A stretch of DNA of 64,000 nucleotides from Styela clava (taxonomy: Eukaryota; Chordata; Ascidiacea; Stolidobranchia; Styelidae), in assembly GCF_964204865.1 (NCBI RefSeq), contig NC_135257.1, forward strand, positions 6,780,151-6,844,150, given 5' to 3'. This document shows positions 466 to 57,455 of this stretch, one piece after another; the first letter of the stretch is position 1, and the number at the start of each line of letters is the position of its first letter. The translations under genes and the position numbers were made by a program. The notes beneath the pieces were generated by a model. The model ran no database searches, was not told the DNA's origin, and worked only from the letters and a program-made list of their open reading frames with translations.

Positions 466-3400
466 GTGGATATTTTGAAAAACAGGATTGTTCTGAGGGT
501 GGAGAATGTCCCTATTCTTGGTTGCCTTGGGAGGGATGGAGTCATTGTTATGAAAAGTGTGGACCAGAAATACGTGGAAAGTATTGAAGATTTTATATTT
601 ATCCTGGATAGAAAAAAGAGATAAGATGACTTAATTATATGTTGAACCAAAGCCACACATTGGGTTACCAGTTCAGTTCTGTTTTGGTCTTTAAGATGCA
701 TGCATTAACCAGTGGTTATGGGATTCCAAATAGGATATCTACCCTCTTACTTTTAATTGTCACATGATCCAAACTCGTGCAGCCAAGGTTACGCTGCAAT
801 TTATTTCATTCTGCTTCGTTCAATTATCTGGTATCTGCCAATAGCTGGGGCAAACTGAGCCTGCCACAAGAAGTAAATCAATAATGAACTGTGGCATTAT
901 TTTTGCACAAAAACCTTACTGATATGGTTCTCGGCCCCATTATAGTTTAGAAGCTGTTGTAAGGTTAGCTAGCATTTAGAAAATAGCCCTTTTACCACTG
1001 GAGTGAAAATGATTAACTTCATCCACAAGCTTCAACATGTAGTGCTCTTGTGTTGGATTAGTCAGAATATTACTCTTAAGAATTTATATTCACTTTAAAG
1101 GCCAAATCATGCAGTTTCTGATTTTCTGGTACTTTTCAACCCCATTATTCTTTTGGTGCTTTCCAGTATTTATCACGACCTTTTCTCAGTGTGAGATATT
1201 GGCTAATATTTAATTGCAATGGACCTTTTAAGTTTCAGGAAATGTACTGGGGCTGAAGAATGCCTTGGAAAATCCTTTATAGTGGAGGATTGTGGACATC
1301 CACCTTGTGGTAAGAAAGCCTAATATATTCTGTTGGTCGATATATGGTTATTGTTCAATGAAATCTTCATTGTGGAAACAATAATGTTGGATTTCTCAAT
1401 AATGCATGATGGCTCATATGACTTATTGATCAATGGCTGGTTATACTATCCGCCACCAACCATACCCATTTATGTACCGGTATCAACAATGTATTTGGAT
1501 AGTTGAGTATCCATCCTAGAGTGTTCGAGGTTTGCCCGATATCTTGGTTGGGATGGCATATGGAAATAATAATCTCCAATGCAAATTTGTAGCTTCAATG
1601 TCCTGGGTTTGAACACTTTATTCAGGGTGCAAAAAATGAGTAGTATGCGTCACACTTTTCAGTTTATACAAAATTTAACTTTTCACATCTTTCCAAATGA
1701 TTGTAAAGATCATTGTTCGTAGCAATGATATTAAATACTTCATAGATGGTATATACAAATAAAAGAGTTGTGGCTTTTGTCAGAGAACCATTTACAAGTT
1801 ATTTGCATGAAATTAAAGTTGATGTTTATGAGCAAAAAAATAAGAAAATGCGGTATTCCTGTTTACTTTTTGTTGTTGGCCTGTTTCGGTATACAGTGAT
1901 ACCTTGGTAGTCGACCGACTCGAACAACTCGGGAGTTGGACACAAATTTCTAGTTAAAAATGCTGCGGTATTGGAGCGAAAATCCAGCGCCCGAACTCCC
2001 GAGTGCACCACCAAGTGAGAACTGTGCATCAGAGCTGCCATTCAACAAAAGAGATGCTCAAATATGTGGAAGCGAAGGCCATAACGAAGTAGTACAGTTA
2101 TGCAATCTGTCAAGGTAGACTACTTGTACAGCAGTCTTTTTGACTAACATGAAAGCAGAATCGCAACAAAGTGCGCAATTTTGATGACGTAGTCGCACAC
2201 GAAAAACGAATTTCATAGAACCCTCAGAAATTTGCTCAATCAATTAAAAAATCACCATTGTTTTGTATTGCAAAAAAAGTTTCGGTACTCTAACAAATCA
2301 GTAGTCGAACACCAATCCAGAACGAATTATTTTCGACTACCGACTTATCACTGTAATTTATGAACAAAATTTAACTTGATTTGAAGTATACCACTAATCC
2401 ATCACTGAAACTCACTCAGGTGCCTTGGGATAGTGGAATTCAGTTTACATTTTGAGATCTTAGTTTTAAACCATTAAACTTGAAAGCATTAAATTTTCCT
2501 ACTCAAATATTTTTTACTGCAAGATGAGTCAGGTAAGCCTGCAGGAGGAAGCACAAATGTTGGTGGTGACAGTACTGGTAATGATGGTGGGATTACTGAA
2601 TCTAGTTGGGGAGAATGGTCGGCTTGTTCTGCTTCATGTGATGGAGAAAGAAAAAGGTTTGTGATATAAATCTTGATGATAAAATACAAAATAATTTTTT
2701 AATAAATAAATATTTTTCAAATTACCCCTATAAATTGTGAAATTCATTGTGTTTGGCATATAATTGGATTCCAGTTTAATTTAGTAATAAAATGTGATGT
2801 ATTTGGTATATCAGTGTTTTCTTTATGCTTATTTATGGTTTCTAATATCAATATACATCAAAATGTTGACCTTGCACTTCAGAGCAGTGTCTTAACCTAG
2901 AAGTCCAAGCTCATGTAGTGTTTTGAAGGTCGGCTTGTGGGATATTGTTCCAAATCAACCTATACCTATACGCATTTTATTTGCGATCTCATCTAACATT
3001 CAAATTTTCTGCTTTTCTTGCGACCACCCTGTATGATCAAATTGGGAATTCAGTACACATACCGGTAATTTGTTTTTTTATGAAAATATTAAGAGTTCAA
3101 TTATATTATGTAAGAACCCCATTGTTTTATTTTATGTGCAATTTGATATTGATCTAATGTTGAAACTGACCAGGTTTGTTATGTCATTCTCCATTGTGTA
3201 TTAATACAAGTTATTACAATTCAGAGAGAAATCATGTGGGAATTCATTATGTTCGGGTTCAAATTCTGAAAGAGAAGTTTGTAATACAGGAATATGTTAC
3301 GAAGGTATTATAAATGCATCATATTGGCCATCTTCAGTGAAGGCCTTTCAAATGCTGATTTGATCTATTCAACCATACTTACCCCCACCCAACCTACCAA

Positions 3401-6400
3401 TATTTGATAATAAAATATTCTTTGAGCAAGGCTGATTATTTGTTTGTTGTATCTGATTTTTAGTCCCAACATTTTTTCTAGTCCTAAACTCTCACTTGAA
3501 ATTAATGTATTTTTTTTGCATTTTTAATATGCAGGAGATGTCCTTGGTGAATGGGGAGAATGGGGTTCTTGTACTGCAGAGTGCAATCAGGTAAAGTCTA
3601 TTCAATATTTTTAAACAAATTCATGTATGTATATAAAATGTCTTTCAAATTTTGTGAAAATCTGTGAGCCGTATCAATTGCATTTCTAGAAACGCAAGCG
3701 AAGATGTCATGGTGTGGACAGAAAACCTGTTGATAAATGTGGGGCAAATGCTCCTGAATTTGAATTTGAAGAGAAATTATGTGACTCGTATAATTGTCGA
3801 AATCAAGGGGGTCAGTGGGGAGAATGGTCAACTTGTTCTGCTAGTTGTGAGGGAACGAGAATGAGGTTATTTGTTGTTTCTTTTGAATTTTTGAAGTGAT
3901 GTATTTGTGAGTGCCGTACATTTCTAAACTATAAACTTGCGGAGAACTTACTATTGTGTCAATATTTTCTGTCTATTGATAATGTATCGTTTTCCATTAG
4001 AAATAAGATGTGCAATGGCAGGGTGTGTCCTGGTGAAAGTCCGGAAGGAGAAATGTGTAATGTGGGAGCATGTGAAGGTAATGCGCTATTTTACTCTTGT
4101 AAATTTTGAACCTATGCGTTTGAATATACAGTTGATATTGAGTGTTATCAATATGCAGTTGTTATGACAAGAATGTCAATATTTTGAAAAAAAATTACTT
4201 TCCAACACAATTTCATGAAAACATGGGAATATAATATGATAATCTAATTTGAGATAAAGTTATGTAATTTACGGTATGTATTGTAATTAAATTGATCAAA
4301 ACTCTTAATTTTCAGATACCCTTGGTATATGGAGCACCTGGTCATCATGTAGCCATTTATGTTCTCAGGTGTGCATTATTCTTTGTTTGTGTGTGGTATT
4401 ATGGTATTTTATATTCTGAGATATATTGAACCCTGCACTCACTATTCGGGGATGAATGGTTTAAAAACAGTGTAACGATAGAATTTTTTGGGCAGGGATA
4501 GTTAAAAAATTTATTTTCCCTATTTATATATTTTTTGAAATTACTGGAGTATGAATGAAATTTTGGTAAAAAGAATTTTACTTTATTTTGATAACGGTAT
4601 TTTGGGTTTGGCATAGTCGTGCCAAACATTGTTAGCATTGGAAAGCAGAAATTTTGGATCTTAGCTGTGGTTAGTCTATTATCCAACCCAAGTCCACCAT
4701 ATAACCCTGAATGACCAATTGGAATCGATTTGATTATCAATAATAAGGATTGATTTATCATTAAGGAAAGGAAACGCAAATGTAGAGACTTGAACAATGA
4801 AGTTAGTACCTTGTGCGGTTATAATGCTCAAGAATATGAATATGACAAAAGATCTTGCAATACTGAAAATTGTGAATCAGAATCATCTTCTTCCATTGGA
4901 GAATGGGGATTTTGGTCAAGTTGTTCGAGATCATGTGATGGGACCAGGACCAGGTATACGCAAGCATAATATTCTTGCCCAATTCTGTATTTATTCAGAA
5001 TTAACAGTAATTTAAACTAGTTTTCTCACAACAATATATTTGTTTGTCCTCACACTAAACGTCTCGGCGGCCTGGCGTATCATGCTAAACATTATGAATA
5101 CGCTCGCTATCGCACCTCTGATTACCCTGTGTGGGTTCGCAGGCTCGAATCCCATGCAAGGATCCTATGTGCGAGAGGATTGCTGGACTTCTCGACATGG
5201 ACTGGTAACCGCATGAGAGGCCGTGGATCGCCATATGACTATACCGTCTTATCGACTTTCCTTTCTCCTAGGATAAATATGTTGATGATTCCTGAACAAA
5301 TAGCCTAAGCTCACAATGCATTTTTTCACTTTCGCATTTTGTTGGTTTTATTTCTTTATTTAGGAAACAAAAATGTCAACAGTCATTTTGTCCAAACCAA
5401 AAGGAACAAAGTGAACAATGCAATGTTGGTGTATGTACTGGTGAGGATAATGGTGATGGAACTGACGAAAGTGGGTTCACTATTTTTGTTTTTTACGTCT
5501 TATTACAGATGAAAGATGAGAGTGTCTAATAGGACATTAATTCAATTTAAGATTTTGATTTTCAGGAAATTATTGTATTAGACAGTGTTGTTTTCATTTT
5601 TAACCAAATATTTAAGTCAGAGCCGATATTGCTAAGACCGAATAATATTGAGAGTGGGAAACTGAGCTTTTTTTGTCTGATGTCAAATCTTCAAAGTGAC
5701 AAATTTCTGAAATAAAATATAATAAATTATTCCTAAATTACAGAATTATCTATATTGAACATAATCACATTCAAATATATTTGAAAATTTGATTTGTTCC
5801 GTTACCCCCGTTTCTAGAAAAGTGAGTTGCAATTTTTAATAGCGCAGTTGTAGTTTATATTTGAATAGAAACTATAACCGAAAGGCTTGCATGTGATAAA
5901 GCGTTTGGATTCCAATTTTGTTTTCATTGTATGTGGACGCTGAATTAGGATTCGAATATTTTTAATATGTAGCTGGAGACTGAAAAGATGATATGTGTGT
6001 TAATAAATTTGTGCATTAATAATTTATCATTTTTAGTATAGAACCCTCGAGTTCACATTGGACTAGATCTCTACCTCATCTTGCAATTACACAATTAAAC
6101 TAACGAAAACAAGAAATAAAAACAAGTAAATAGTTAATGTCTTAGGAGTAGTAATAATAATAAGATTTAAATTTCACAGATAACAGCATCTTTGAAATGA
6201 GAGAATTGAAAATATCAAATACTTTATGTGGATCATCATCTAATATCAAATGGTACTTTGGTGATTTCAATGGTGATAGACGAACTGATGCGTTATGTAT
6301 CACTTCGGGTGGTAGCCTGTAAGTACTTTGTTTCATTTTTAATGATTTTCTTCTTAGTACATTATATCTTCGCATATATGCCGTTATGCGCGTATAAGGT

Positions 6401-7357
6401 GGCAATTTAGTTTGGCGACTTTGGGTTTCAAACTTGGCTTATATGCGAGTTTATGTGGGAATTAATATTACTTTCGTTTGAAATATTAACCCAAAGTAGT
6501 CTAGGTTGGTATCTCAGGTTATGAATGTTAGATTCAAATCTTATTCTCACTAAATTTATTAGGAAATGCTGCACAAGAAAAATACCTTTTCAAATACTAT
6601 TGACTATTTGTAAAGATATTTTTATTAAGTAAATGCTTGGGATAACTTATTAAAAACCTGTCATCAATTCCGTTGAATTAGTAAAATTTGTGCTACTGAA
6701 GATAAATGTTTAGATCTTTTTCATTCATTCATTTCAGTTCTCTCGGGCATGCAAATACAGTTGGAAATGTCGAAAAACTACATTGGAAAGGAACAGCAAG
6801 ATCTTGTTCCGGAGAAAATATTTACATCGCTGATTTTAATGGAGATGGTAAAGATGACGTACTGTGCAAGGATGAAATGAAAAGGTAAGAATTTAATTAC
6901 ATATATATTGTCAAGTTCATCTTGTTTTGAATTCAATAAGTCGTCAGCAGAAAGATGGAATCTGTTCCTTTTTGTTTTCGTCGCAGATTTTGACAGAATA
7001 AGATCCTGCTCTGATTTCTAGTAGGCTTATTCATAAAATGACGATAACTTCAAGATCATCTCTTCTGATTTAGACTTTGGAGGATGTTTTTGTTTTAAAC
7101 AAATAGGAAATAATATCACACTAGAGGTTCAAATACTAATCTAAAATGAACATTCTGTTCTTGTTTTCAGGAGGCTTGTTTTGTTATATGCGAATAGTGT
7201 AGGAGTATTAAGTGAAAAAGAAGTTGATGCAGGAAATTTTTGCACTGATCCTTCTGATAATCTGGTTCTTATCAATATGCCAAACTCAAAAACTATGGAT
7301 CTTCTTTGTCACTTCGAAGATAAACATATCGAAGTTCGATCGAATATTGGAGGTTGA
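466..7357 (+). CDS. Thrombospondin type-1 repeat protein with C-terminal FG-GAP-like repeats (5' end outside window)
   Basis: Thirteen exons join in phase: 466-580, 1239-1309, 2524-2656, 3225-3304, 3535-3590, 3690-3865, 4001-4077, 4316-4368, 4766-4953, 5364-5440, 6180-6318, 6738-6884, 7171-7357 (stop TGA). They give 498 residues. The chain holds the end of one TSR and then six TSRs, each with a W-x-x-W-x-x-C style start (for example WGEWSACSASCDG, WGEWSTCSASCEG, WSTWSSC) and six-cysteine spacing. Each TSR is split across two exons. The last three exons carry two FG-GAP-like motifs (WYFGDFNGDRRTDALC, YIADFNGDGKDDVLC) with a DxNxDG calcium-type loop. TSRs are extracellular adhesion modules, so a secreted or membrane location is likely, but no signal or TM is inside the window. 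Exon 5364-5440 could use a second in-phase donor after 5470. The same final-exon layout recurs in the next gene, so the two are paralogues. Upstream domains are unknown. Confidence 0.85.
1894..2353. mobile_element. pogo/Tigger-like MITE with TA target duplication
   Basis: The ends are inverted copies: CAGTGATACCTTGGTAGTCGA at the left and its diverged complement (TCGACTACCGACTTATCACTG) at the right, each flanked by TA (1892-1893 and 2354-2355). The CAGTG..CCTTGG..GTCGA form resembles Tigger/pogo termini. It is 460 bp, lies in the intron between exons 1239-1309 and 2524-2656, and has no transposase frame. Confidence 0.75.
5064..5275 (+). mobile_element. tRNA-derived SINE, internally shortened copy
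   Basis: The head reads like a tRNA promoter: an A-box-like block near 5071 (TGGCGTATCATG) and a B-box-like GGCTCGAATCCC at 5143-5154. The body (GTGCGAGAGGATTGCTGGACTT) and tail (GAGAGGCCGTGG...TTATCGACTTTCC) recur in the copies at 17452, 19398, 59400 and 62369. This copy lacks the middle of the element. It lies in an intron of the TSR gene. Confidence 0.7.
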
Positions 7358-9051
7358 TTAGACATTTGAAAATGATGGACTCATTCATAGAAGTGTCATA
7401 TTTACATACTCGAATTCTCTTTACAAGGCCTTTTCATTTATGGGAGTGTGAATTAGGTATGGTCAGGTGTTTTTCCATACGATCCATACCGTAGGTATTT
7501 TCACAAGAGGATTTCAATTTTGAACATTTTCAAATTTTTTTGAGCATTTACCTTGAAATATACATAGGAGACACAATTTTGAAAATCAAATGTTTGATAT
7601 CTGCGATTACCATACTTCTATATGTATCCATGACTCTAGTTTTGAATAACAGTTCATATGAGTGCACTTTGTCCTGATATTCATGTGAAGCCTACTCATT
7701 TATAATATATAAAAGGGATTTTGTAACCATTTGCTGTTATTTTTTCTCATGGTATTGCGGTATGAAATATTGTTTATTATTTCTGAATGTCTTCATTTGT
7801 TCAATACTTAAACGTTAAGGTTTATGCTTTATTTGTTTGATTTGGCATGTATTACTATCCTATTTATTTTACAATGTATACTGTTTATATTTCAAGCTTG
7901 TGCATTGATTTGACTTCTTTTATGTATTACTCGATGCTTTGTTGGTATACCTATTCAAATTTGCTAGTGAATTGGTCAGTCTATTTTTGATGGTATTTTT
8001 GTTATTTACTGTAGGTCTTTTGATCAATTTTCAGCTCACAGTTTCAGCTTGTTTTTCTTCAAAACTAATGTGCCGATCATTTTCAGATTTTCAGTGCTTG
8101 AAAATGACAGAAGTCGCGACAAAGCTAATTTTTTATTTGGAAATGACCTTAGAATCCGGTTGAAGTTGGTAATTCGCCTCAAAAATTTTTCTGCTTCAGT
8201 TTAATTAAATGAGGGTACATTTCATTCTGTATTGCTCTACTACCCTTGTACTGCTTGTTTACAGATCTTTTCTTGCAAACTTGATTGTTTCGTGTGTTAA
8301 TGTTCCGGAACGATGCACGGCATCTATTACTATGTATTTGAACAACGCCCTCTTGTGGTGGTTATTCAAAAAAAATTGGGTGCTTCTGAAGTATGCGCAT
8401 CAAGATGTCGCATAGCCTAAACCCCAGCCTGGTACACAACCTGAGTTCAGGTTGTGCGCCATCTTGGTGCGCATACTTCAGGAGGTCCAAAAATTGAATA
8501 TATATACACCTGTTTTTATTTTAAAGTTCCTCATTTTGTACATCTTTTTAAATTACAATTCACTCTCATTTTATTGTCTGGTGTTGATACCAGTTGTCAT
8601 AAGCGCAATGCAATGATAAATGCAATAAGTGAATACTGTATATCCAATCCAGAATTAGAAACTTGACATAATATTTTTATTACTGATATGTTACAATTTT
8701 ATTTTCAATTTCAATTTTATGTTGTGTAAATTTTTTTTATTTTTGATGTTTCTATTTTGTTCTTGGAGAAATTTTTGTTGTTGTAAACAAGCGTTACAGA
8801 ACCATACATGTCTGAATGTTACTAACAACCAAAGCTGTGAAATCCAGACTCAGAGATTGCTACTTGAATCCAAAGTTTGAACCTCTTAGCATTGGTTTTT
8901 ATATTCCGAATAGACAAATATTTATTCATTTTAAATTAAATATGTTATGTGTTCATTTTTACAGTTAGTGCAAAGTTGACAAAAATGTCCTGACAGAATT
9001 GTTTTATTAATACTACCAATATGAGCAGCATATGCCTTGTGGTGGCAAAAT
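7358..9051. other. Spacer between the two TSR paralogues
   Basis: Holds the presumed 3' UTR of the upstream gene and the promoter and 5' UTR of the astacin gene. The only distinct structure is the palindromic MITE at 8386-8481. The short open frames here look like chance. I found no convincing AATAAA close behind the stop at 7357. Confidence 0.5.
8386..8481. mobile_element. Palindromic MITE with a nested hairpin
   Basis: Two 27-bp arms (8386-8412 and 8455-8481) are inverted copies with about three differences, sharing CTGAAGTATGCGCA and the AAGATG core. Between them a perfect 10-bp inverted repeat, CACAACCTGA / TCAGGTTGTG, makes an inner hairpin. A related, longer element lies at 56019-56211. 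Confidence 0.65.
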
Positions 9052-12000
9052 ATGGTTGAACTTCAACCAGTAGACACTGTAATTCCAGGCAAATCTTGTG
9101 GACCTATGACTGAAACAACAACTAATAGAAAGAAATTAAAGACAGCTGGTGGAAGATCGAAAGGTGAAATTGGGAATAATCAATAACTTATTCCATTTGA
9201 GGTTCAGAAATGGAAAAATTTTATCCGGTTTAGAAATATTTTGCTAGTTGCTTTATTCAATACAGTCATGAATGCCAGAGTAAGTTGTAAGACGTAACAC
9301 AATAAGTCACAATAAGTTTTTATTTTCGCGGAGTAGATTGGAATCCTAGAATCAGTTAGTGTTACTCGAAAATACTTTTCTTCCCTTTCTTTTTATTTTT
9401 GTTGTACTCTGAAGCAATTTCCTTTAATCTGACAGTACAGAAATAGATACCTGTTAGCACACAGCAAGACTGAATTATGATTTGTGATTAATTTGATTTG
9501 CAGGTATTCAGATAAATTGATTTTTTGGAAAATTATGATATACAACAAATTACTTCTAATAAAATTTAACAACATTAGCATTGCAAAAATGGCAACCTCT
9601 CAGAGGCTATAAACCGAAATTTTGATTGTCTGAGATCTCAATTAAAAATTTTTGAACAGCATTCCCTTGATTTGAACTAAAATATTTGGGAATGTTTGGC
9701 TACAAATTTTATCTAAATTGTGACCTTCTGAATAGATTACTTTTCAAATAATTAATATGGCAGGCTTCATCTGTGATTTATCCTAATAAATATAATGTCT
9801 TGTTGATATTCAGGTATATCAATTATTTTTTACAGGTGTTCGATCGTCGAGTACTACAACATGTGATGTCACAAAGCTTATTGTTGTTATCATCACAATT
9901 CTAATTCTTGTTTCTGCCCTCATTGCAGTTGTCTTAGTAATTGTTATGGGTATGTATGATTCATGAATGCATTATGCATTTTCTTTTTTAAAGCTGAATT
10001 TTATAGCTTTGCTCTTAATAAAACTTTATTCAGACAGCTACTCAGATATCGGGAGCTACTAAATTTAGAGAAACTGCAAAGTGGCCTAGTGGTTGAAGCG
10101 CTGGTCTTTGCTATGTTAGCATCACAAGTTTAAAATATGTGGTTCAAATACCATGACCATCATCTCTCTCTGTCTGTCTGCCAATCTCTGTCTTCTTTCC
10201 CTGTTTTAAATGGTGGAGGAAATAATTGGTATGCATACCATATAGTATGATAACATTCATATATCCAAATTTTCGACAATAGTATTTTATAATAGTTATC
10301 CAAATCATGATTGTCTTCAATATTCAGAAAAAGGACCATTGAGTTGGGGAAATTTACACCCAGCTACATTCAAAAAATGACCACCACTTTCGGAATCACT
10401 AAAATCTCGTCTCTCCTCCACCAGGTTGAGAGAAATTTTGCCTTGGACCCCTGCTCTGAGAAAACCAAATTTTTTATATCTAAATCTTCTGGGCATTCAA
10501 GATTTTTCCTCCTGTTGAGAATGCTTAGTTAAATGGATGAGTTTTCGTTGGAAATTTCAGTCAACACTTTTGTTGCCCGTAACTTTCCAACTTCTGATTC
10601 GGATGGGATCAAAATTTTGATTTCTAACTCCAGTATTGATAAAATCATGCAAATTTCTCGACGCTCTTGTTCAGAATGCTTACATTTTGTTTTGTAGTAA
10701 CTTGCATTGATGAGCCTATCACTGAATAATCATACCCAACTGAACAGTTGATAGAATTTTTTCAGTTCGAATATCTTTGTTTTCAGATCAAATGTCATCT
10801 TCATTAAGAGCTTTTGAGAAAGCATCATGTGATGAAGTAGAACCAACGCCTATGCATATAAATTCATGTTTAAGTGCGTCAATTATATTTCATTAATGAA
10901 TTAGTCTATCTGAAATATTGTGATATATGATTTGCAAAACTCAAATAATTTTAGGATGGCAAAATTAAGCAAATGTTTTTTATTATTCCTTTGTCACTTT
11001 GAATTCCATCATTCTTTTTTCAGCATTCTTTTGTCCTTGTTCTAATAGATTAGGTTAATATTATTGTGATGCGATTGTGAGAAACATATGCTGTAAAGTG
11101 AATTTATTGGAACACAGGAATTAACAAACTGATTTTGAAAACTGTCATTGTAGAAGAAACTGGTTAAAGTTGTATGTGTATTCAAAAGAGTTATTGACTT
11201 TATTTGTTTCATAATTTTCTTTCGTCTCCTTGTTGTTTTACCAAACATTGAATATTTGTTTTGTGTGAGGGCTCAAATAGCAGCATATTTTGATATTGGT
11301 ATCAACTTTGTGTACATTCATTTGAGCATTGCCTTCTTGTCTTCTTTCAGATTCTAACTGTCGATTTGATCTTTCTACTTGTTTTGAACCATGTCCATTC
11401 GGCTATAGAACAGATGAAAGTGGATGTGAAGATAGTTGTGAATGTGCTATTGAAGGAAGTTTTGAAGGAGATATTGCATTTTCTGAAGATGAAATACCTA
11501 AATTAACAGAAGTGTGTACAATTGAAAATATGATAAAGTTTGTTGGTCAAATTAAAATACATCTTCTGTCAGTATTCTCAACATTGTAGTCTCAACAACA
11601 CTTTGTCTACTTCGAAAGTCTTTTTCCCTCCTCTAGGCAAATACACTATTACCATTTCATGAGTCAAATTTTGATATTTGCCCTCATTTTAGTAATATAT
11701 ATATTTATGAACGAATAATGAATAAACTGCGATTAATGTTGTCAATATGATATTTTTTTCCTGAAACTCAAGATTCAAGATGTTTTTTTTCTTTAGAGTT
11801 TCAAAAAATAAGTTTAGATTTTAGCTGTTTTGGGGAAGTTCAAAATATCTTGACGAAAAAATATTTCTTGTCAAATTTTATCTTTCAAATAGATATTACC
11901 TTTATTAGCTACATAGAAATTTATTTAGAACATTCAAAATAGAATGAATTGCACACAACACCACCATACAGATGGAGACATTGTCAGGTCTGTTATAGAC

Positions 12001-15000
12001 CTTTGTAGTAATGAAACAATTTCAATGGAATTACTAACAATGTCATATATATATATCTAGCTTTATGGATACTCAATGCCTGGTGATTTTGACGTATTTT
12101 CTGGTTCGTCAACAACAGGTCGTATATGGAATGATAAACCTGTAGATGAGAGGCATAAAATCTATTATGAATGGGCATCTTCTGTTAGTGAGTAGAAAAC
12201 ATTGTGTTTCATTTTTACTGGCATTTGGAAAAAGAGTGAGCATAGCGACCGTTTTGTTATTGTGTTTTGGTGGTAAAATTGATTTCTCGGCAATGCCCAA
12301 TCATTGAAAGAAATTGCTAGATGTCTATTGCTCATATTTAATTTTTTCAAATTCAGTTTTCCCAGTCCTGTTATTTTTGTTTTTATTTTAATTCATGGAA
12401 CACTCATGATGTATGGAAACTTTTTTATTCAGTCACACTTGTCCACTAATGTTTCCAGCAAACTACATGCTCAGCTTAGATCAGCTTCGTATTGGTGCAC
12501 GGCCTGCATGTTAATTTATATAAATACGAATTACTCTCTTGTTTCAATCAACTAAAGCATAAATCCATATTTGTTTTTATAATAAGCAAATTTGTTTGTT
12601 TTTGTTGTGTTGGTAGTGTGTAACACACATGCTTTATTGTTGTATAACTAACAGTATTGTTATCTGAATAGTGATATATCCTAGAATTTTGTTATGCAAA
12701 TGGTACCATTTTTCAGAGAATTGCAATTTTGGTCACTTTTCGAAATAAAAATGATTTCAAACTTTAAGCTAAATACTATTAATTGGTAATTTCAGCTGAA
12801 AAAGCAGAGAAGGCAATTATTGAAGCTATTAAACGATATGAAGAAAAGACATGCATCGATTTTATTGAAAGGAAAACTGAGGAACGTTATTTCAGATTCA
12901 CTTCGGGAAGAGGTTGTATGTGAGTGCAATCATTATTCACATGTATATAGGACCCGGGAGTTAAATCAAAGGAAACTTCAAGCTGATGATAAATTTTTCA
13001 ATCCACTATTTGATTTATATCATTATTTTTTGCCGTGATGGACAGTTTGATTGATACACAATCCTGCAACACATAATTTATGATAGCGTTGTTTGGTGTC
13101 TGAAAAATGTTGTGTCTCACTTGTCCCGAGTATGGCTCACATTGTAGGAAGATAAAAACTTCATTATGGAATTTGCGGTTGTGCACACCGCAATTTTTAA
13201 AGACTACATCACAGGTACACAGCAATATGTAGAAAATTGACACCAACAGTTCTCAGGAGCTTTCCAGGAATCGTCCAGGGTTCTTGCTTAGGACCTCTAT
13301 TCTTCATTTTATACATCAACAATATCTCTAATTTCCCAGATCTATTGACTGGAGTATTTGCCGATAACACTGATCTTCTTGACAGCGCGAAATTGATGTC
13401 AAACCTTAAGAAGTGTGTAAATAACTATTTGCCCTAAAGGATATATTTATCATAACTCAGAATAGTGGGAAGGAATAAGATAACATATTTTAGTCATTGG
13501 TATTTTTCAACGATTTCACAAATCATGTTTTGAATAAATCTTGCGTTGTTAACTTCAATAGGTCAATGATAGGAAGGCATAGAAAAAATGGACAACAAGT
13601 ATCTATAGGTAAAGGTTGTGAGATACCAGGTGTTGTTCAACACGAATTACTACATCTGCTCGGATTTCATCATGAACATTCTAGACCAGATCGAGATTCC
13701 TATCTTAAAGTTTTAGAAGAGAACATACTCAAAGGTAAGGCTTGAAGTCAGTTAACAAATTGCTAAGTTCAAGGTTTTAAGTAATACTGTTATTTGAAAT
13801 ATTTGTTGAAGTTTGCAGGGGGCATGCTTTAAGGTTTGTGTTGACAAAAGAAACTTTTTTAATTCCAATCTTGAGAAACATAATTAGTTAGAAAATTCTC
13901 TAGAAGAAAAGTAGTTCGAGATTAGTTACTTTGGACCAGGGGTTCCCAAACCAGGAGTCGCGACCCTAAATTGGGTCGGAGTAGTAAGTAGGGTCGCAAA
14001 CAGGTCATGGGGTCGCTAAGGTAGGGTGGAGGATAATTGTACAAATCATCTAAGATTTGACAAACTATGTTAAATTTAGCAGTTTATACCATGGCTTACT
14101 GTAAAAGAGGCTCATAAGCATCGCTCTATGTTTATGATATAGAAAATGTAGATGCTTATTGTGACATCACTGTTTGGTTTTAGCTTATTTTACCTAACAC
14201 CTTCACATGACCAAACTCAAAAGTCCAGTGAAAGAAGCTCTATAAAGTTTCATGAAAAATATATATATTACCCTGGGGTCACACTGGACACTTGAAAGTT
14301 GTCCTTGGGGTCGTACTGAAAAGAGCCTGGGAACCCCTACTTTAGACAATTGTCATGATGCTGTTTTGTTACTGGTTTTGCATATTTTGTCTCCCGTGTT
14401 CATTTATATATCATTCATTAGCTAAAATGCCCTTGTTGCCATTATATCAGTTTACTAGTATAAATTTTTTTTCATGTTTTAGAAAGATTTGGCAACTTCA
14501 AGAAGAGATTAAAGAGTCAAGTGCGAGATCTTGATTCAGAATATGACATAACTTCTGTAATGCATTATCCAAGTAATGCATTCAGTAAAAATAAGAAACC
14601 AACAATACTAAACAGGAAAAATGATAAATTAGTAAAAGCACAAAGACGAGGATTCACAAATGAAGATTTATATGAAGTCAATTTATTGTACAACTGCTAC
14701 AATGAATTAGCAGCAGCAGGTGAGTGGTGTAGATGTCAATGGTGATTTTCAACTTTTTCGCATTAGTGAAAAATTACAAATAGTTCTTAACAGTTCAGTC
14801 TTATCCTGTCACATTTTAAAGTAAAAAGTATAAATTTTGAATACTCTGTGATGGATTTATTCATATATGTTTGATACAAACTAAATATATAAAAAGTTGA
14901 CTTTTTATCTCAGAATTGAGATATGATTGTATATTCATTTGTCTTGTAATGATAAGATTTATAGATAATGTGGAAATATTAATTTGAAGATGGGATTCTT

Positions 15001-18000
15001 GGACAAGATTGTACTGGTTTAAAACATGAATATGCATTATAAGCTCCTTTGGATTATTAGTGAACAAAACCTAATATAAAAAACAGATAGTTTTATAAAT
15101 AGTACAGCGATAGTCCAGGGACTGCAGACTGACACTTGTAACACTGTCAAACAACCAGTGTTGGGAATTCTCAGCGATTGACTCAACAAGAGAGTCGCAG
15201 CCTGTGTCGTATTTTCGAACTTACTGGAGTCTGAGTCAAAATTTGAATTTCTGAAGTATGAATCAGAATTGCAGTCTTTCAATTGGAGATAAAAAAAAGT
15301 TAAAACTACCTATAAAACTCAAAGGGCATTAAGTTTAATGAGCATTCTTTACAGTCTACCAGAGGAGGAAGCGAATGCCTACTTTTTGTAATCAAAAAGT
15401 GATTTGAGTATGAAAGCCGAATTAGAAGTCAAAACTGAATCAAATGGAAGCCAGAGTCGATTGTAAATTATCGCAGACCAACAATTGATATTTTTATTTT
15501 CTTAGCTAAGTGGGCATCTTGGACACCATGGAGTTTGTGTGATGAGACTTGTGGATTTGGCGAAAGATCTAGATTTAGAAAATGTAAAAATATGAAAGAT
15601 GAAATAGTTGCAGGATGCAAAGGTGCTAATTGGTTGGTGCTCGCAAATTTCACAGATCATGACTAGGGCTGGACATTTCGAATCGAATATTCAAATTGAT
15701 TTGAATAGTAAATTATGTAAATCTGTTCTGTCAAAAATTTTAAATTGGCACCATCTTGTTTTTTCTGTTAAAGTGAGGGTAATCCCTAATTTTTGTTTAT
15801 TGAAACCATATTTTCAAAATGCTATTCTGACTTATGACTTTTTTCTTCCTAGTGAGTAATTGATGTAACATGTTTCTTGTTATTTGTCAACATTCAGCGA
15901 ACTGTCTGATTGATGGATTCTATGTTTTCAATAATTTATGTGTCTGGAAGACATATTACAAAAAAAAATCACTTGTAATTATCTATCTTCCAAGTATTTG
16001 AGATTCGATTTGATTCAAAAAAAATATGATTTGATTGAGAAATCGTAAGATATTCGGAAATGCCCAGCCCTAATCATGACTCTTTTAGAATCTAGAAGAA
16101 TATAATTATTTGAATAATGACCCTCTCAATCATGAGGCCCAAAAAATACTTTCAGTTAATGAACTCCGTCTGTATATAAATTAGTTTTAAAATAGTTTTC
16201 ATTAATTTTTTATTTTAAATCGAATTTTTGTTTATAACCAGTTTGTGCTTTACTTTTTTCATCTTGGATTTAAAATATACCAATGACTATTACTGGAAAA
16301 GTTTCATGGCAAGATTTGTTCAGTTTTTCTTCATAAGATCTACCGGTTCTAAAATACGATTCTAAGATCTAAAATACGGTTCTAAATCTCAAATCTTTCA
16401 GACACTGACCACGATTGATTCTAATCTTCAGGTCAGTTTTTTATCATTATCAAATTCTGTCATCAACCTATATTTAGGATCTAAGTTTCAACGAATAGCC
16501 TGCCAAGGTCCACCATGTCCACGAAAAGCTGGGAGATGGAGTGAGTGGGGATCTTTCACAGAATGTAGTGAAAAATGCAGCGGTGGTTTCCAATGGAGGT
16601 TTGTTCAATACAATATCATGGTTGAATCTCTGGGTATTCAAATATTTTTATTGCGTTGCCTGTACTTAGCAATCCTGAAAGGCTTTGGAGAAAAATATCT
16701 TGAGTAAGAAGCTACGAAGATGAGGAGTATTTGCATTATGTTTTGTTACACACTGAGTATTGTTCTTATTATTTCTTATATTCTGTTTCAGTGACTTGAG
16801 TATTGAACATATATTCATAATTGGATAATGTTCAAAAGTCTGCATGATCTACTTTTCTTTTTTCACCAATAGTAAAGGTTTACAACATTGAACTAGTTAT
16901 TAAATAGCATACTTGACTCACACTGGTGATTTCTCAAAACCATGTGGTTGCTTATATTAGAATTAAGCTGTCAACTGCAATTTACCTGTGGTGTGAATAT
17001 TATAAATACCATCCTGCATTTGTGCAACCAACTTGACGTGAAGTTGTAGGGACGTCAACATTTAGATATATTCTCACCTAACAGGAGAAGAAGATGTTCT
17101 GCTTATGGTGAATGTGAAGGTGTATCATATCAAGGACAATCCTGCAATAAAGAAGTTTGTGAAGGTAATTCAAAGATGTGACAATTATTCATTTATCACT
17201 TGCATGCATAAGAGAATGTATATAAAAATGTATTGTCTGTACATATATATATAACAGTAGTTGAGGGATGAAATGTATCAGAATGTTGTTTAGTTTTTCT
17301 CTGAAGCTCAGTCAAAGTGAGGCATAAACTAAAAGTGGAAAGATCACAGAAAGAAAGGTAACAAAACACAACTTGCATGCAGAGATCTGCATATTGACTT
17401 GCAGTTTTTACAGAAATACCCATAAATACTCTGACTTTGAGCTATAATTGGCTTGGCGGTGTGGCGCATCATGCTAAGAGTTAGGAATACACTTGCCACT
17501 GCACCTCTGATTACCCTGCATGGGTTTGAATTCTGTGGAAGATTAATATGTGCGAGAGGATTGCTGGATTTCTCGCTGCCAGAGAGGGGTTCATGTAAAC
17601 GCTGGTCAGTTACTGCTTCCTCTGCCATCAAGTCCATGCATCTGAAAACAAATACCTGGCTAACTAATCCCATACCAATGGACTGGTAACCCGACCAGAG
17701 GCCGTGGTTGACCATGTTTTTGAGCAGTCTCATTGGCTTTTCTTTTCTGTGGGATAATTATCTAAACCCTATATTTAAGGTCCTTGTCAGGTAAACAGCA
17801 AACTCCCCATTGCAAAAGTTGTTAAAAACAATTCATGAATAAAAACTAGCTGCTAAGATTGGATGAAAAGTATTTTAGGCATTAATGATAGAAAGCTTTC
17901 ACAAACAAAGTCTGTTGTAATGTTTATAGAATGAGATTAGTGAAGCAAAATAACTGAGAAGCTAGTTTTAGATTAACAATATTTCATTTTCCAGGTATGC

Positions 18001-21000
18001 CAAGGTGGGCAGAGTGGTCTGCTTGGAGTACTTGCAGTAATAGGTGTGGAGGAGGATCAATGGTCAGTTTTATTTTAATAACAATTATATTAGGCTCACA
18101 ATCGATTTGAAATGTGGATTTCATATCGTTACATTCATGTGTCTAAATGTCACTGTTTATTTAGTCAGTTTCAGGTGTTTTGCTATCTTAGCTCATTGTT
18201 CTATTTGACATTGAAAGGGTATGGTAGGTATAGTGTATTGAACTACAGCTCTCATCTTCGTAGATTAGAAACTGTCAGTTTTTGAACGAGTTTAGCAACG
18301 GAGCTTGTAAATTATGATAGATCTGTCTCACTCTGTCATCGGTATGAGATGAAACACTGGTATGGTTATAGCCATTCAATTACACCAAGTAGTACTTTTG
18401 TAGATTTTTTTCTTGACATGATTGTCTTAACCAAGATTCCAAAAAATGTTGCTCGATTCAATAATAGCTTTACTTTTTCCAAATTTTTTAGTTTAGAGCA
18501 GTACTACTCCCTAATTTATTTCTTTAGTTTCTGTTTTTTATTTTCACAAATTGAATAACTTATCAAAAGCCTACTTTTCACAGTCACGCAAACGTCAATG
18601 CTTAACTGTTGACTTCGTAGCAGCATTGACTTGTGAAGGGGATGATGCAACAGGAGTTGAGACACAAAGAAAAGATTGTAATACAAATGACTGTGGCGGA
18701 ATTTCCATTGAGTCTGATTATGAAAATCTTTGGTCTAGTTGTTCATCTAGTTGTGAGGGTACAAAAACAAGGTAATATTTCAAAAGGAATTTTTCTATAC
18801 CTGAACTTCAGGAACTGTTATACTTCAAATTCATGGATGTCTAAAATTAATTGAATATTCAATAAGGTTCAAATATACTAATTTCTGGAAATTACGGTCC
18901 CTAGATATATTAACTTGAAATTTATGCAACAAAATGGCATTGGTCAATTTCTTGGTCGGCCTTTTTAATTTTGTTTATTTTCAAAATTGGCCTTCATATG
19001 ACCTAGTCACCAAATAATTTCCGCAATATTCTCTGTTAAACATGACTCTGTTTTATACTACATTTTCCAGACCATATGGTTTCAGTCATCCCAGATGGAT
19101 TTTGAAATTCTCTATATCTAGGTTCTATATCTAGATATACCAAAAAATCCCAAATAAATTATTTTTGGTCATTGAATACAATTTTTATTGCTTTCGCAAT
19201 GCCAGGCAATGTTTTTTGCAGGGAAAGAATTTGTGAAGGTAGCTGTCCTCCTGGTCAAAATATTGAAAAACAACCATGCAATGTTGGTGCTTGTGATGGT
19301 CCAAGTATGTTTTCATATTATTCCCATTTTTTGCTGTAACAAAAGTTGTTTTCAATTATAACATGCTTAATTGCCAGTAGGATAGGATTTAAATATTTAT
19401 CCTGGGAAGATGAAAGGCTTAATCATATGGCGAACCACGGCTCTTGTCCGGTTACCAGTCCATGAAGGGTTGGGGGACTTGATGGTGGAGGAAGCCGTAA
19501 ACAACCACCGGTTACTAAACTACCCTGTTGCTGCGAGGAGTCCAACAATTCTCTTGCATATAATTATCCCCACATTGGATTCAAACTTGCAAACTCACGC
19601 AGGGCAATCAGAGGTGCGGTGGCGACCGTATTCCCAACACTTATCACGATGCACCACACCGCCGAGCCATCAAGACACTAATGTATTCCTAATAAAGAAT
19701 AACCGTTACAATTTTCTGTCTAGAGTGGAGCTGAGTTATTTAGTGTTAGGAATTACTAGAAATTGAGGTAATATTAATTCCAGTTGTCGAACATCCTGTT
19801 TCAAAGTTTTAGAATCCTCATTATAATATATGAAAATATCCATTACATGATACATCTTTATAAAATTAAACATGCTACAATTCATTGAATGGTATCTGAT
19901 GAGATGAAACACTGTTATGGTTATAGCCATTCAATTACACCAAGTAGTACTTTTGTAGATTTTTTTCTTGACATGATTGTCTTAACCAAGATTCCAAAAA
20001 ATGTTGCTCGATTCAATAATAGCTTTACTTTTTCCAAATTTTTTAGTTTAGAGCAGTACTACTCCATAAGTTATTTCTTTAGTTTCTGTTTTTTATTTTC
20101 ACGAATTGAATAGCTTATCAAAAGCCTATTTTTACACTCATGCAAACGTCAATGCTTAACTGTTGACTTCGTAGCAGCATTGACTTGTGAAGGGGATGAT
20201 GCAACAGGAGTTGGGGGACTTGATGGTAGAGGAAGCCGCAAACGCCCACCGGTTACTAAACCACCCTGTGACGGCGAGGAGTCCAACAATTCTCTTGCAT
20301 ATAATTATCCCCACATTGGATTCAAACTTGCGAACTCACCAGGGTAATCAGAGGTGCGGTGGCGAGCGTATCCCCAACACTTAGCACGATGCACCGCAAC
20401 GCCGAGCCATCAAGACACTAATGTATTACTATTAAAGAATAACCGTTTCAATTTTCTGTCTAGAGTGGAGCTGAGTTATCTAGTGTTAGGAATTACTAGA
20501 AATTGAGGTAATATTAATTCCAGTTGTCGAACATCCTGTTTCAAAGTTTTAGAATCCTCATTATAATATATGAAAATATCCATTACATGATACATCTTTA
20601 TAAAATTAAACATGCTACAATTCATTGAATGGTATCTGATAGATAGACTAACGTCATAATTTGGCCACTTTTGTAACTTATACCATTTTTTTGATCATCT
20701 TTTCATGACCCTTTCATCAGGAGTTTATCAATTTTTTGTAAGTTTCAAAACCCAAAAATGGCTCGCAATTCTTATTCAATAAATTATTTGGCCTTTCTCC
20801 CTAATCTCATTTTAGGGCAATTGCATAACTTATTTTTTCCACGTAAGTTTGAGCCAGGTATTGTAATAAGCAAAACTCTGTATTTTTAGGTATAGTAGTA
20901 AAATATATTTAATACTTTGTTGTTTTATTCATAGGGCCAGAAATGTATCTCACGGATGTGGTACAGATGCCACAAGTACTTTGTAATCCATCAGCAAGAA

Positions 21001-22958
21001 ATAGGTGGTATTTTGGCGACTTCAATGGAGATAAAAGAACAGATGCACTTTGCATGTCTGATAAGGAATTTTTGTGCGTATCTATATTTTACACTCGAGA
21101 ATCCGATACTTTGAATCAATCATATTTTAACATTTGAATAACCAAACAAGCTTTTGGCAGAACATTGATGTTTCCCTGTATCAGATTTTGTTGTTATCAG
21201 ATTGTTAGAGCTGCACCAAATGAAGCACTATACTGCATGAAACCTATTTTTAAATTTCAATCCGGCTGTCATAAAACAATCAAGCAATACTATTTAAATC
21301 ACAATAAATATGACAACTTCACGTTCATCGTACATTGTCTGACGAGTTTTAACTGTAATTATATTTCCTGATATACTACTTATGCAATGTCCAATTTTAA
21401 TCCAACTAGTCCAATCTTAATGGTATGATTCGAACAGGTATATTGCAGAGAATTAGACTATTTTTTTATAATGTGAGAAATATTACACTCTGAATGTCAT
21501 CACCCTATATCTGCCATTTTCTATAAAAATCCCCCATTCAAATATTATTATTGATGAAAGTCAAAAATTTTTGTATTGTCTCATTCGAATTCGTTAAACA
21601 ATTTTGGTTATGTAATTAGTTTTACTTTCTTTGAACAAACAGTTTCCTTTGCCTGTAGTGAATACACTTTGCTGTGTATAATTGCAAAAAAAAAAATATT
21701 AACCAGCCATTCCATAGTTTGGAATTGAACTAAATTTAACTTGTAATTTTCAGTAAGCTTGCACATACAAGTCCTGATGGTGCACCGATAAAACTGAACT
21801 GGCAAGGATATTTACGAGAATGTACTGGCTGGTTCAGATTTATAGGTGATTTTAATGGAGATGGAAGAGATGATGTTCTTTGCAGAGATGATCAATCAAG
21901 GTATTAGTTTCTACAAAACAATAAAATACTTACTGTAGGTCTATTCAATAACATTGTTCTATCAAGAGATCAAGACACTTACAATGCTGAGAGTATTTTC
22001 TGTGTGTGCCACTTGCTCCCGTTAGACAAGTACAATACGTCGGACCTTAGAGACAAGTGGGATGCGATATTTTTGAGACACCCTGTTGAGAGTAGCATCT
22101 AATTGTTTTCCAGACAAATTGACCTTGAAGACAAGTTTATTCAGCTTCTATTTATGGGGTTGCCCACCTATCAAACTTTCTTACATTCTCAGTGGATGGG
22201 TGCACTACTGCACTTAGCAATGAACTGACGACCAGAGCTTGAATCTTAGACACTCATCGACACCACATTACTTAACTTTCTCAAAGCAGCAATAATCATA
22301 CAAATAGAGACAATAAGCAATCTTTACTAAATTTTTGAGATACTAATTCTTTGGCAAAAAATTTGCCTAGAAGAGAAAAAATAGTATAAAGACTCATTTG
22401 TTAAAATGGACACTCCATACCCTTACTCTCCAAATTTCTCAATTTTCATTGAGGTCTATTAGGGATAAAATTTACCTATTTATCTGTTGGGAGGAGAAAG
22501 CCGATAAGACAGCTCAAACATATGGCGAACCACAGTCTCACGTCCGGTTACCAGTCCATGTCGGGTATGGGATTAGTAAGCCAGATATTTGTTTTCAGAT
22601 GCATGGACTTGACGGTGGAAAAAGCCGTACTGTATTAGAAATGTTAGTATTTCAGATGACGATTGCTTCTATTATTAGATGTTGTACTATTGAGGCAGTG
22701 GATAAAAGTTTATATATTGTGTTGAAATTTTTAGTTGTGTGTTCATTTTAGACCATTTATTTTTTTTTCAACAGAAAATTGACAATAAAATTCGCCAATA
22801 AAGATGGACAATTTGATGACTTGGAATTAAATGTAGGAAATTTTTGTACACAACCAGCAGATAGGATATTTATAGCTGACGTAAACGGCGATGGAAAAGC
22901 TGATCTTATTTGTCGTTATGCTAATGTGGATATAGAAATACGGCTCAATAGAATATGA
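9052..22958 (+). CDS. Type II membrane astacin metalloprotease with antistasin-like, TSR and FG-GAP-like domains
   Basis: Seventeen exons, 753 residues: 9052-9163, 9836-9949, 10787-10873, 11351-11511, 12061-12187, 12796-12919, 13562-13734, 14483-14719, 15506-15622, 16478-16598, 17085-17164, 17995-18062, 18584-18771, 19222-19304, 20935-21073, 21754-21900, 22775-22958. There is no signal peptide; a basic N-terminal tail precedes one hydrophobic segment (residues 52-75), so the rest should face outside. Residues 108-136 match an antistasin-like domain (six Cys, FGYRTDESGC). FEGD at 142-145 is the astacin prodomain aspartate switch. The catalytic domain is complete: HELLHLLGFHHEH at 269-281 supplies the zinc histidines and catalytic Glu, and SVMHY at 324-328 is the Met-turn. 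Four TSRs follow (about 379-598), then FG-GAP-like repeats with DxNxDG loops. The exon 4/5 junction is uncertain: the chosen donor after 11511 is phase-correct, and an alternative uses a 16-bp microexon at 11971-11986. The third last and second last exons match the upstream gene in length. An active membrane-tethered protease is inferred; its substrate is unknown. Confidence 0.85.
10079..10200 (+). mobile_element. Second type of tRNA-like SINE
   Basis: GTGGCCTAGTGGTTGAAGCGC (from 10080) looks like a tRNA A-box region and GGTTCAAATACC (10141-10152) like a B box, with a CT-rich tail (TCTCTCTGTCTGTCTG). Spacing of about 60 bp fits a tRNA head. The acceptor ends do not pair, so this is not a tRNA gene. 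It lies in the intron before exon 10787. Confidence 0.55.
13237..13437 (+). mobile_element. Dead reverse transcriptase fragment of a non-LTR retrotransposon
   Basis: The 66-residue frame contains QGSCLGPLFFILYINNIS and, further on, GVFADNTDLLDS. These match RT motifs 4 and 5 of LINE elements (QGSxLGPLLFxLYINDI and FADDT). The catalytic FADD is FADN here, so a metal-binding Asp is lost. The piece is short on both sides and lies in the intron between exons 12796-12919 and 13562-13734 of the astacin gene. Confidence 0.7.
13937..14339. mobile_element. hAT-type non-autonomous element, 403 bp
   Basis: Starts CAGGGGTTCCCAAACC and ends CTGGGAACCCCTA. Flanking 8-bp target copies CTTTGGAC (13929-13936) and CTTTAGAC (14340-14347) differ by one base. 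The interior shows mirrored GGTCGC / TTGGGGTCG blocks near the ends and no coding frame. It sits in the astacin gene intron after exon 13562-13734. Confidence 0.8.
15664..16072. mobile_element. hAT-type MITE, 409 bp, perfect target duplication
   Basis: Terminal repeats TAGGGCTGGACATTTCGAAT and ATTCGGAAATGCCCAGCCCTA are inverted copies. The flanks are identical 8-mers ATCATGAC (15656-15663 and 16073-16080). The interior is AT-rich with repeated TTCGAATC-like words. It lies in the intron between exons 15506-15622 and 16478-16598. Confidence 0.85.
17452..17756 (+). mobile_element. tRNA-derived SINE, near full-length copy
   Basis: Most complete copy in the window. It has the tRNA-like head (GGCGGTGTGGCGCATCATGC at 17456, a decayed B box GGTTTGAATTC at 17522), then GTGCGAGAGGATTGCTGG, the CATCAAGTCCATGCATCTG block, TAACTAATCCCATACC, and the GAGGCCGTGG tail. 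Stretches of it are read as chance frames on both strands. It lies in an astacin-gene intron. Confidence 0.75.
18346..18659 (+). repeat. Segmental duplication, donor block A (contains start of a real exon)
   Basis: This 314-bp block, from GAGATGAAACACTGG to GCAACAGGAGTTG, includes the acceptor and first 76 bp of the true TSR exon 18584-18771. It recurs with few changes at 19901-20213. Confidence 0.85.
19398..19669 (-). mobile_element. tRNA-derived SINE, reverse orientation
   Basis: Reads as the complement of the SINE family: GGCGAACCACGGCTC...CCGGTTACCAGTCCATG at the tail side, CTTGATGGTGGAGGAAGCCG in the body, and a decayed A-box complement (CACGATGCACCACACCGCCGAGCC) at the head. Part of it, from 19469, is copied again at 20210. 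Confidence 0.7.
19469..19900 (+). repeat. Segmental duplication, donor block B
   Basis: This 432-bp block runs from GTTGGGGGACTTGATGG to CATTGAATGGTATCTGAT. It holds most of the reversed SINE and 220 bp of plain intron. It recurs at 20210-20640 with under about 5 percent differences by eye. Confidence 0.85.
19901..20640 (+). repeat. Rearranged duplicate of blocks A and B carrying a dead exon copy
   Basis: Block A copy 19901-20213 is fused directly to block B copy 20210-20640; they share GTTG at the join. The A copy holds 76 bp of TSR exon 18584-18771 (from about 20138), but the acceptor CACAG-TCACGC has become ACA-CTCATGC, so the AG is gone, and the exon is cut before its donor. It therefore should not be spliced in. 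The whole lies in the intron between exons 19222-19304 and 20935-21073. Confidence 0.8.
22500..22630 (-). mobile_element. Partial tRNA-derived SINE (tail half)
   Basis: Contains ATATGGCGAACCACAGTC, CCGGTTACCAGTCCATGTCG, GGGATTAGTAAGCCAG and GATGCATGGACTTGACGG, the complement of the tail half of the SINE at 17452. The tRNA head is absent. It lies in the last intron of the astacin gene. Confidence 0.65.
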
Positions 22959-32007: not shown

Positions 32008-42511
<10,504 letters not shown>

Positions 42512-56742: not shown

Positions 56743-57153
56743 TCAGTCCTCAGATATTTCATCAGACATCGTCACAACAGCACCATTAGCGGCTTTTTTT
56801 GATCCGGAAGGTCCGGGGGCACTTTCTTCTTCAGTTTGTAATTTCCGTTTAGTAGGCGAGTTATTATCTTTAGTTGATGACCCCGGGTTAATATTTTCTT
56901 TTTCAACGATTGCATCTGTTTTATCTGAACTATTGACAATATTAGGTGTTGTGTTCATTATGAAAAATCGATCAATAGGCTTCTGCCAGTTTGGAGTAGG
57001 CCTTGGGCAAACTGGATTACCTCCGGCATATTTATCTTTTTTTGAAGATGGTGATCCCAAGTCAATACGACTTGAGGCAGCAGCGAAATTTTTTCTAGGA
57101 GCTTTTTCGGCTGTGACTCGCCCAGTACCAGAACAAGCTTTGGTACGAACCAT
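56743..57153 (-). CDS. PCLAF: PCNA-associated factor PAF15
   Basis: A 136-residue frame beginning MVRTKA, the invariant start of PAF15. The core KYAGGNPVCPRPTPNWQKPI matches the vertebrate signature, and Q57-x2-I60-x2-F63-F64 is a PIP box for PCNA binding. K85-E86-N87 is a KEN box, the APC/C-Cdh1 degradation signal, placed as in human. The N-terminal half is basic and Ser-rich, the rest acidic and disordered. Human PAF15 is 111 residues; the extra length lies after the KEN box. Known role: binds PCNA at replication forks, is ubiquitinated, and modulates lesion bypass; its level is cell-cycle controlled through the KEN box. The coding region has no intron here, while the human gene is split. 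It is tail-to-tail with NOP58. Conserved residues and open frame argue for a live gene, not a processed copy. Confidence 0.93.
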   Translation of the reverse strand: MVRTKACSGTGRVTAEKAPRKNFAAASSRIDLGSPSSKKDKYAGGNPVCPRPTPNWQKPIDRFFIMNTTPNIVNSSDKTDAIVEKENINPGSSTKDNNSPTKRKLQTEEESAPGPSGSKKAANGAVVTMSDEISED

Positions 57154-57455
57154 TATTCTATAATTTTATGTTGACAATATTCTATAGCCTATAACTTCTG
57201 CAATTACTAAATGTAATTCAATAATATTCACCTTATTACTGTTTTAAATCAGGCAAATAATCTATGCTGATTATGCATAGAATAAAAATTTTCATATTTT
57301 TCTCAGGGAGGAGCTTTAACTGATGATGCGATAGCAAGCATTGGTCAAATAAAAATATAACCTGATATCAGAAACCCTGGCACAATATCAAACTGTCAAA
57401 GCATTTGCTATACACATTAACTTCATGCCATGGTTGCCTGGTGATAACACTAAGG

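Follow-up and report, generated by a model that had tools for sequence, protein, structure and literature searches.

A 17-exon Styela clava gene for a predicted type II transmembrane astacin of the Tast kind with an antistasin-like stretch and an FG-GAP tail

A 64,000-nucleotide stretch of the Styela clava genome (NCBI RefSeq assembly GCF_964204865.1, contig NC_135257.1, positions 6,780,151 to 6,844,150 of the forward strand; hereafter the window) contains a gene of 17 exons whose 753-residue product is probably a Tast-like astacin with a type II transmembrane anchor, kept latent by an FEGD switch and held on a matrix, with a role at the egg coat that is proposed by analogy. The core of this architecture (type II astacin plus TSP1) is already known, and the antistasin-like stretch and the FG-GAP tail go beyond the published Tast descriptions consulted. 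The features of the gene, in window coordinates, are as follows.

9052..22958, + strand: 17-exon gene, 753 aa (spliced translation, GT-AG borders, phases, Pfam)
9052..22958, + strand: domain order TM / antistasin-like / FEGD pro-region / astacin / four TSRs / three FG-GAP blades
9052-9163, 9836-9949, 10787-10873, 11351-11511, 12061-12187, 12796-12919, + strand: exons 1-6
13562-13734, 14483-14719, 15506-15622, 16478-16598, 17085-17164, 17995-18062, + strand: exons 7-12
18584-18771, 19222-19304, 20935-21073, 21754-21900, 22775-22958, + strand: exons 13-17
9877..9948, + strand: single hydrophobic helix, residues 52-75, exon 2 (hydropathy, splice-site scan)
11377..11445, + strand: antistasin-like stretch (borderline), residues 114-136, exon 4 (Pfam, PDB sequence matches)
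11461..11472, + strand: FEGD, residues 142-145, astacin-type aspartate switch, exon 4 (motif)
12151..14697, + strand: astacin catalytic domain, residues 189-371, exons 5-8 (Pfam 5.4e-56)
13641..13673, + strand: zinc site HELLHLLGFHH, residues 269-279, followed by E280 (motif)
14554..14568, + strand: Met-turn SVMHY, residues 324-328 (motif)
15506..19304, + strand: four TSP1 repeats, exons 9-14 (Pfam TSP_1 2.9e-18)
20935..22958, + strand: tail of three FG-GAP repeats (calcium blades), exons 15-17 (Pfam, lectin and esterase structures)

The gene model is sound. When rebuilt from the raw sequence, all 16 introns showed GT-AG borders and the exons joined into a single open frame of 753 codons plus stop, in agreement with the coordinates, the domain order and the one-gene interpretation of an earlier sequence-only reading. 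The claim in that reading that all splice phases agree holds insofar as the frame is unbroken, but it carries little weight for the N-terminal part, roughly a third of the protein, because 9 of the 16 exon joins are of phase 1 and exons 2 and 3 (each 1-1) could be skipped in frame. The Pfam search that the same reading had proposed gave scores beyond chance for astacin, TSP_1 and FG-GAP and a borderline score for antistasin; in NCBIfam two models matched, both far under their cut-offs. For the 5' exons, codon usage was compared with that of overlapping open intron windows, with exons 1-4 left out of the training set. The value of exon 4 was equalled by none of 638 such windows, that of exon 1 by 20 of 1469 and that of exon 3 by 53 of 2000. 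Exon 4 holds the antistasin-like stretch together with FEGD and thereby ties both to the astacin domain. The notion that two genes, one for the TM and antistasin-like part and another for the astacin, had been read as one was rejected on this ground, since FEGD belongs to the astacin pro-region; with no point found in its support, we regard it as barely credible.

Two further observations concern the same interval. An N-glycosylation sequon (N-x-S/T, x not P) is absent from all 753 residues, which seems unusual for a large ectodomain. A nested duplication extends into intron 14, with 18344-18659 copied at 19899-20213 (97%) and 19466-19905 at 20206-20644 (95%); the copying (within 18344-20644) carried along ∼75 nt of exon 13, which could be an artefact of the assembly or provide a decoy exon.

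Within the window, the 3' half of the model finds its strongest support in the neighbouring gene immediately upstream, whose 3' part is included and which the earlier reading had missed.

466..7357, + strand: upstream neighbour, 3' part only, 13 exons, 508 aa (tblastn, splice model, Pfam)

No exon before 466 was found in positions 1-465 of the window, and no astacin half of this neighbour, if it has one, is in view. The visible part comprises six TSR-like units (counted by eye) and the same three-repeat tail (Pfam TSP_1 6.3e-16, with one stretch passing 0.001 alone; FG-GAP_3 9.1e-8). Its last six exons have phases identical to those of exons 12-17, and three of the six are also equal in length (188, 139 and 147 nt). 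The two products share 40% identity across 263 residues, with 39% in the 155-residue tail, and a simple Nei-Gojobori comparison over the 263 residues gave dN of 0.62 and dS of 2.30, the latter near saturation. The shared phases, lengths and identity, together with dN below dS, indicate that the half made of TSRs and tail has been duplicated and constrained. All six tail cysteines are kept in the neighbour, and its third DxNGDG site is lost. Within its TSR region (3535-5470) a three-exon unit with phases 1-0-2-1 occurs twice (exons at 3535-4077 and 4316-5470), the copies being 43% identical over 102 residues, so the TSRs were probably multiplied by exon-block duplication. Elsewhere in the window we noted a long ORF without interruption that encodes Nop and NOP5NT domains (53612-55267), an ORF for a PCNA-associated factor on the - strand (56743-57165) and an MCM P-loop stretch (38288-38575).

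The predicted N-terminal anchor is encoded by exon 2. Its helix reaches a hydropathy of 3.44 over 19 residues, the next best value elsewhere in the 753-aa protein being 0.74, and the hydropathy profile contains no second hydrophobic segment in the remainder of the chain. The 51 residues before the helix carry 9 K/R and 4 D/E, and the 25 residues after it 2 K/R and 5 D/E; this distribution suggests a type II, N-in orientation, a prediction drawn from hydropathy and flank charge. To this extent the TM anchor and the type II layout of the earlier reading are borne out. A splice-site scan covered both strands and looked for open segments of 60-220 nt, phase 1-1, with an acceptor of at least 6 and a donor of at least 4.0 (a donor threshold set by exon 2 itself). 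It yielded 26 segments for the + strand and 6 for the - strand, and a mean hydropathy of at least 2.5 over 19 residues was found in 1 of the 26 and 0 of the 6, the single case being exon 2.

It is unlikely, in our estimate, that exons 1-3 are wrong or alternative and that the true protein has another 5' end, as in a secreted form. Such a possibility draws on the phases of exons 2 and 3, which allow either to be skipped, and on the properties of exon 2, whose codon usage is intron-like (its value is equalled in 763 of 1469 open intron windows) and whose donor is weak (4.0, lower in only 1 of the 27 other donors), while its acceptor is good (10.6). It also has a precedent in Halocynthia, where the TM is missing from six of the ten HrTast models, one of the six having a signal peptide (PMC11673157). 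On the other hand, exon 2 is the sole hydrophobic segment of the scan, and a signal-peptide exon replacing it was looked for in 7358-10786, where none of the 10 ATG-to-donor segments with a hydrophobic core has a consensus-like donor (GT(A/G)AG or GT(A/G)NG). An intron-like codon usage is what a hydrophobic stretch may show, and exon 2 is supported by splice signals and hydropathy rather than by codon usage.

The cysteine-rich, antistasin-like stretch of exon 4 is borderline by profile. Against Pfam Antistasin (PF02822), whose cut-off is 21.2 bits, the full protein scored 16.4 bits and its N-terminal 181 residues 21.8 bits. In a search of PDB sequences (E<=10) all five distinct matches were antistasin-family inhibitors, with E values from 0.0011 for the best to 2.3 for the weakest, so the likeness to this family looks real but weak. 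Of the eight cysteines in the aligned part of hirustasin, seven are present here, including the C-x-x-x-C-x-C end, which upholds the cysteine pattern described earlier; the second Cys of the CxC is Phe, and the full conserved Cys set of the family (PF02822) is thus absent. Relative to guamerin, hirustasin, antistasin and bdellastasin, the Styela stretch differs by this Cys-to-Phe replacement, by its borderline Pfam score and by a diverged segment, C-F-E-P-C, that aligns with C-R-I-R-C of hirustasin and C-M-I-F-C of guamerin and that we take to be the reactive site in the family. An AlphaFold2 model of exon 4 alone was too poor (pLDDT 53.5) and was set aside.

These features bear on the suggestion of a self-regulated protease, in which the antistasin-like domain would inhibit the enzyme or its activator. 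The Cys pattern, matching antistasin-family inhibitors only (in 5 of 5 PDB sequences), and the location of the stretch in the same exon as FEGD are compatible with such an arrangement. However, the Pfam score falls below the cut-off in the full protein, the reactive-site segment has diverged and one conserved Cys is lost; moreover, characterised members of the family inhibit serine proteases, and the family is not known to act on metzincins. We therefore do not favor self-inhibition, which appears improbable. The FEGD motif, present at residue 142 as originally noted, presumably acts as a pro-region switch in the role that it has in proastacin; it is sufficient to explain latency and is a likelier latch than the antistasin-like stretch, which is most likely a stalk or a protein-docking element.

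In the catalytic domain the zinc site HELLHLLGFHH and the Met-turn SVMHY are complete, in line with the intact HExxHxxGxxH protease of the earlier description, and the nearest solved structures by sequence are meprin beta (M12A, 1.4e-38) and tolloid-like 1 (3.9e-35), followed by BMP1 and astacin. With meprin beta the protein shares an astacin domain with HExxHxxG and SVMHY. Meprin is anchored in the membrane at its C terminus and carries MAM, TRAF and EGF modules, whereas none of these modules (among Pfam hits listed to E 1) and no C-terminal TM (by hydropathy) was found here.

Downstream of the protease, Pfam TSP_1 matches four stretches, each at E 1 or better among hits listed to E 1, which agrees with the four TSRs proposed before. 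The first repeat contains CDETCG, which we take to be an O-fucosylation-type motif. The FG-GAP-like repeats were likewise recovered, with FG-GAP_3 at 6.5e-12 in the full protein and 6e-14 with the tail alone (PF13517 and PF01839 at 46.3 and 31.3 bits against cut-offs of 26.9 and 22.1). The count of three blades is by DxNGD loops, at 626, 676 and 728; loops 2 and 3 are DxNGDG, and loop 1 is DFNGDK, with K in place of the G of the calcium motif. Each repeat has two cysteines (614/637, 667/687 and 717/739), which would pair as a disulfide within the repeat. Compared by sequence with solved structures, the tail comes closest to 'Lectin 2' (4tqj, 2e-8) and to two secreted esterases, with PVL as a weak further match. 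Repeats of this type have been named calcium blades in a study linking those of integrin, PVL and two bacterial proteins (PMC3123361). The tail has DxNGDG-type blades in common with 'Lectin 2' and PVL, but it has three of them against seven in PVL; three blades cannot close a seven-bladed propeller like that of PVL, which would make the pairing of chains possible.

A search of prokaryote genomes with the tail confirmed 113 relatives, of which 80 were kept (25-39% identity in the best segment). Between 30 and 80 loci align at each single cysteine of the tail, and 5 to 10 of them match it; at least two Cys-bearing repeats with the spacing of the tail (by pattern match) occur in 2 of the 80 kept loci, both bacterial.

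L001:2224-3873, bacterial: trypsin-type peptidase (4.2e-17), then FG-GAP repeats with paired-Cys spacing
L002:1792-3816, bacterial: M19-type peptidase (3.6e-13), then FG-GAP repeats with paired-Cys spacing

These two share with the Styela protein both the C...GDFNGD...C spacing and the position of the blades behind a peptidase domain; we do not take the likeness as a sign of transfer between kingdoms. Among open-licence PMC papers we found no ascidian protein combining FG-GAP with thrombospondin repeats and no transmembrane metalloprotease with an antistasin module, and astacin and FG-GAP appeared together only as separate table rows. Astacin, antistasin and thrombospondin are mentioned together in a paper on Hydra vesicles, and astacin and VCBS in the paper with the table rows and in one on a rotifer.

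The membrane-anchored astacin-TSR form had been regarded as unusual, a view that does not stand, since type II astacins with TSRs are published in tunicates as Tasts (PMC9265791, PMC11673157), sperm-surface candidates for the egg-coat lysin (PMC6353882, PMC9265791, PMC11673157); their role is restated in PMC8849226. Five CiTasts, each with 2-3 TSP1, were detected in Ciona sperm; an astacin domain is present in four of them, the fifth has a zinc metalloprotease domain without assigned subtype, and four of the five genes are clustered (PMC6353882). The same report found no TM or signal sequence, which was later revised, all five being described as type II and without signal peptide (PMC9265791). 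In Halocynthia ten HrTasts were described, of which four have an N-terminal TM and seven belong to two clusters, and to the knowledge of the authors type II transmembrane metalloproteases were previously unreported; in an AlphaFold model of HrTast2c the active site is covered by the pro-domain (PMC11673157). Not every such protein has the TM, since two Ciona and six Halocynthia astacin-TSR models are without it (PMC11673157).

With the TM-bearing Tasts (CiTast1 and 2a-d; HrTast1, 2b, 2c and 3c) the Styela protein has in common the predicted type II TM without a signal peptide, the metalloprotease and then TSP1. It shows an astacin domain, TSP1 repeats C-terminal to it and a single predicted N-terminal helix. 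The Tast genes are largely clustered, a trait that is typical of the family and not obligatory; the neighbour at 466-7357 has TSRs and the same tail, with no astacin half in view in the window, and may or may not be a case of such clustering. Differences are the TSP1 count (four here, against 2-3 in the published TM forms and up to 6 in other HrTasts) and the antistasin-like and FG-GAP modules, which in a comparison by description are unnamed in the published Tast domain lists consulted. These modules may perhaps be present but unannotated in known Tasts. The eight published primers for four HrTast genes of H. roretzi have no match in the window (best 5-7 mismatches), which sets the gene apart from these four and says nothing more.

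Taken as a type II astacin of the Tast kind, the protein would sit N-in on the cell surface, where the FEGD aspartate would cap the zinc until cleavage of the pro-region, perhaps near R179-I180. The TSRs and the calcium-dependent blade tail would keep the enzyme attached to a matrix of glycoproteins, and the astacin domain would then cut this matrix. By analogy with CiTast and HrTast, this matrix may be the egg vitelline coat and the cell a sperm; in Ciona a metalloprotease inhibitor stops fertilisation only with the vitelline coat present (PMC6353882). The likelihoods that we attach to this explanation and to its alternatives overlap and need not sum to one. Overlap is most direct for a tentative alternative, possible but clearly the lesser one, in which the same layout serves somatic matrix remodelling (metamorphosis, tunic, haemocytes) and which departs from the preferred explanation in cell type. 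Metamorphosis is a second reported role of the Ciona Tast genes: TALEN knockout and GM6001 both impair it, and three Tast mRNAs are expressed at that stage (PMC6353882). The five characterised CiTasts, however, were found in sperm (PMC6353882, PMC9265791).

A bolder and highly doubtful elaboration of the egg-coat role would make the chain a complete machine, with the inhibitor-like stalk docking the sperm protease that removes the pro-region and the blades pairing with a partner chain into a propeller. If this were true, the docked protease would be of the trypsin or chymotrypsin type and would remove the FEGD pro-region, while the three disulfide-stitched blades and three of the partner would form a six-bladed, glycan-binding propeller on the vitelline coat, the product of the neighbouring gene (with three of the same blades) being an example of such a partner.

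Which protease opens the egg coat of ascidians to sperm has yet to be established, and the Tasts are leading candidates (PMC6353882, PMC9265791, PMC11673157). They also show that anchoring of an astacin at its N terminus has precedents. Overall, two neighbouring genes of S. clava show that the half made of TSRs and blades is conserved, and the calcium-blade tail that this member adds points to one way of keeping the enzyme on its matrix.
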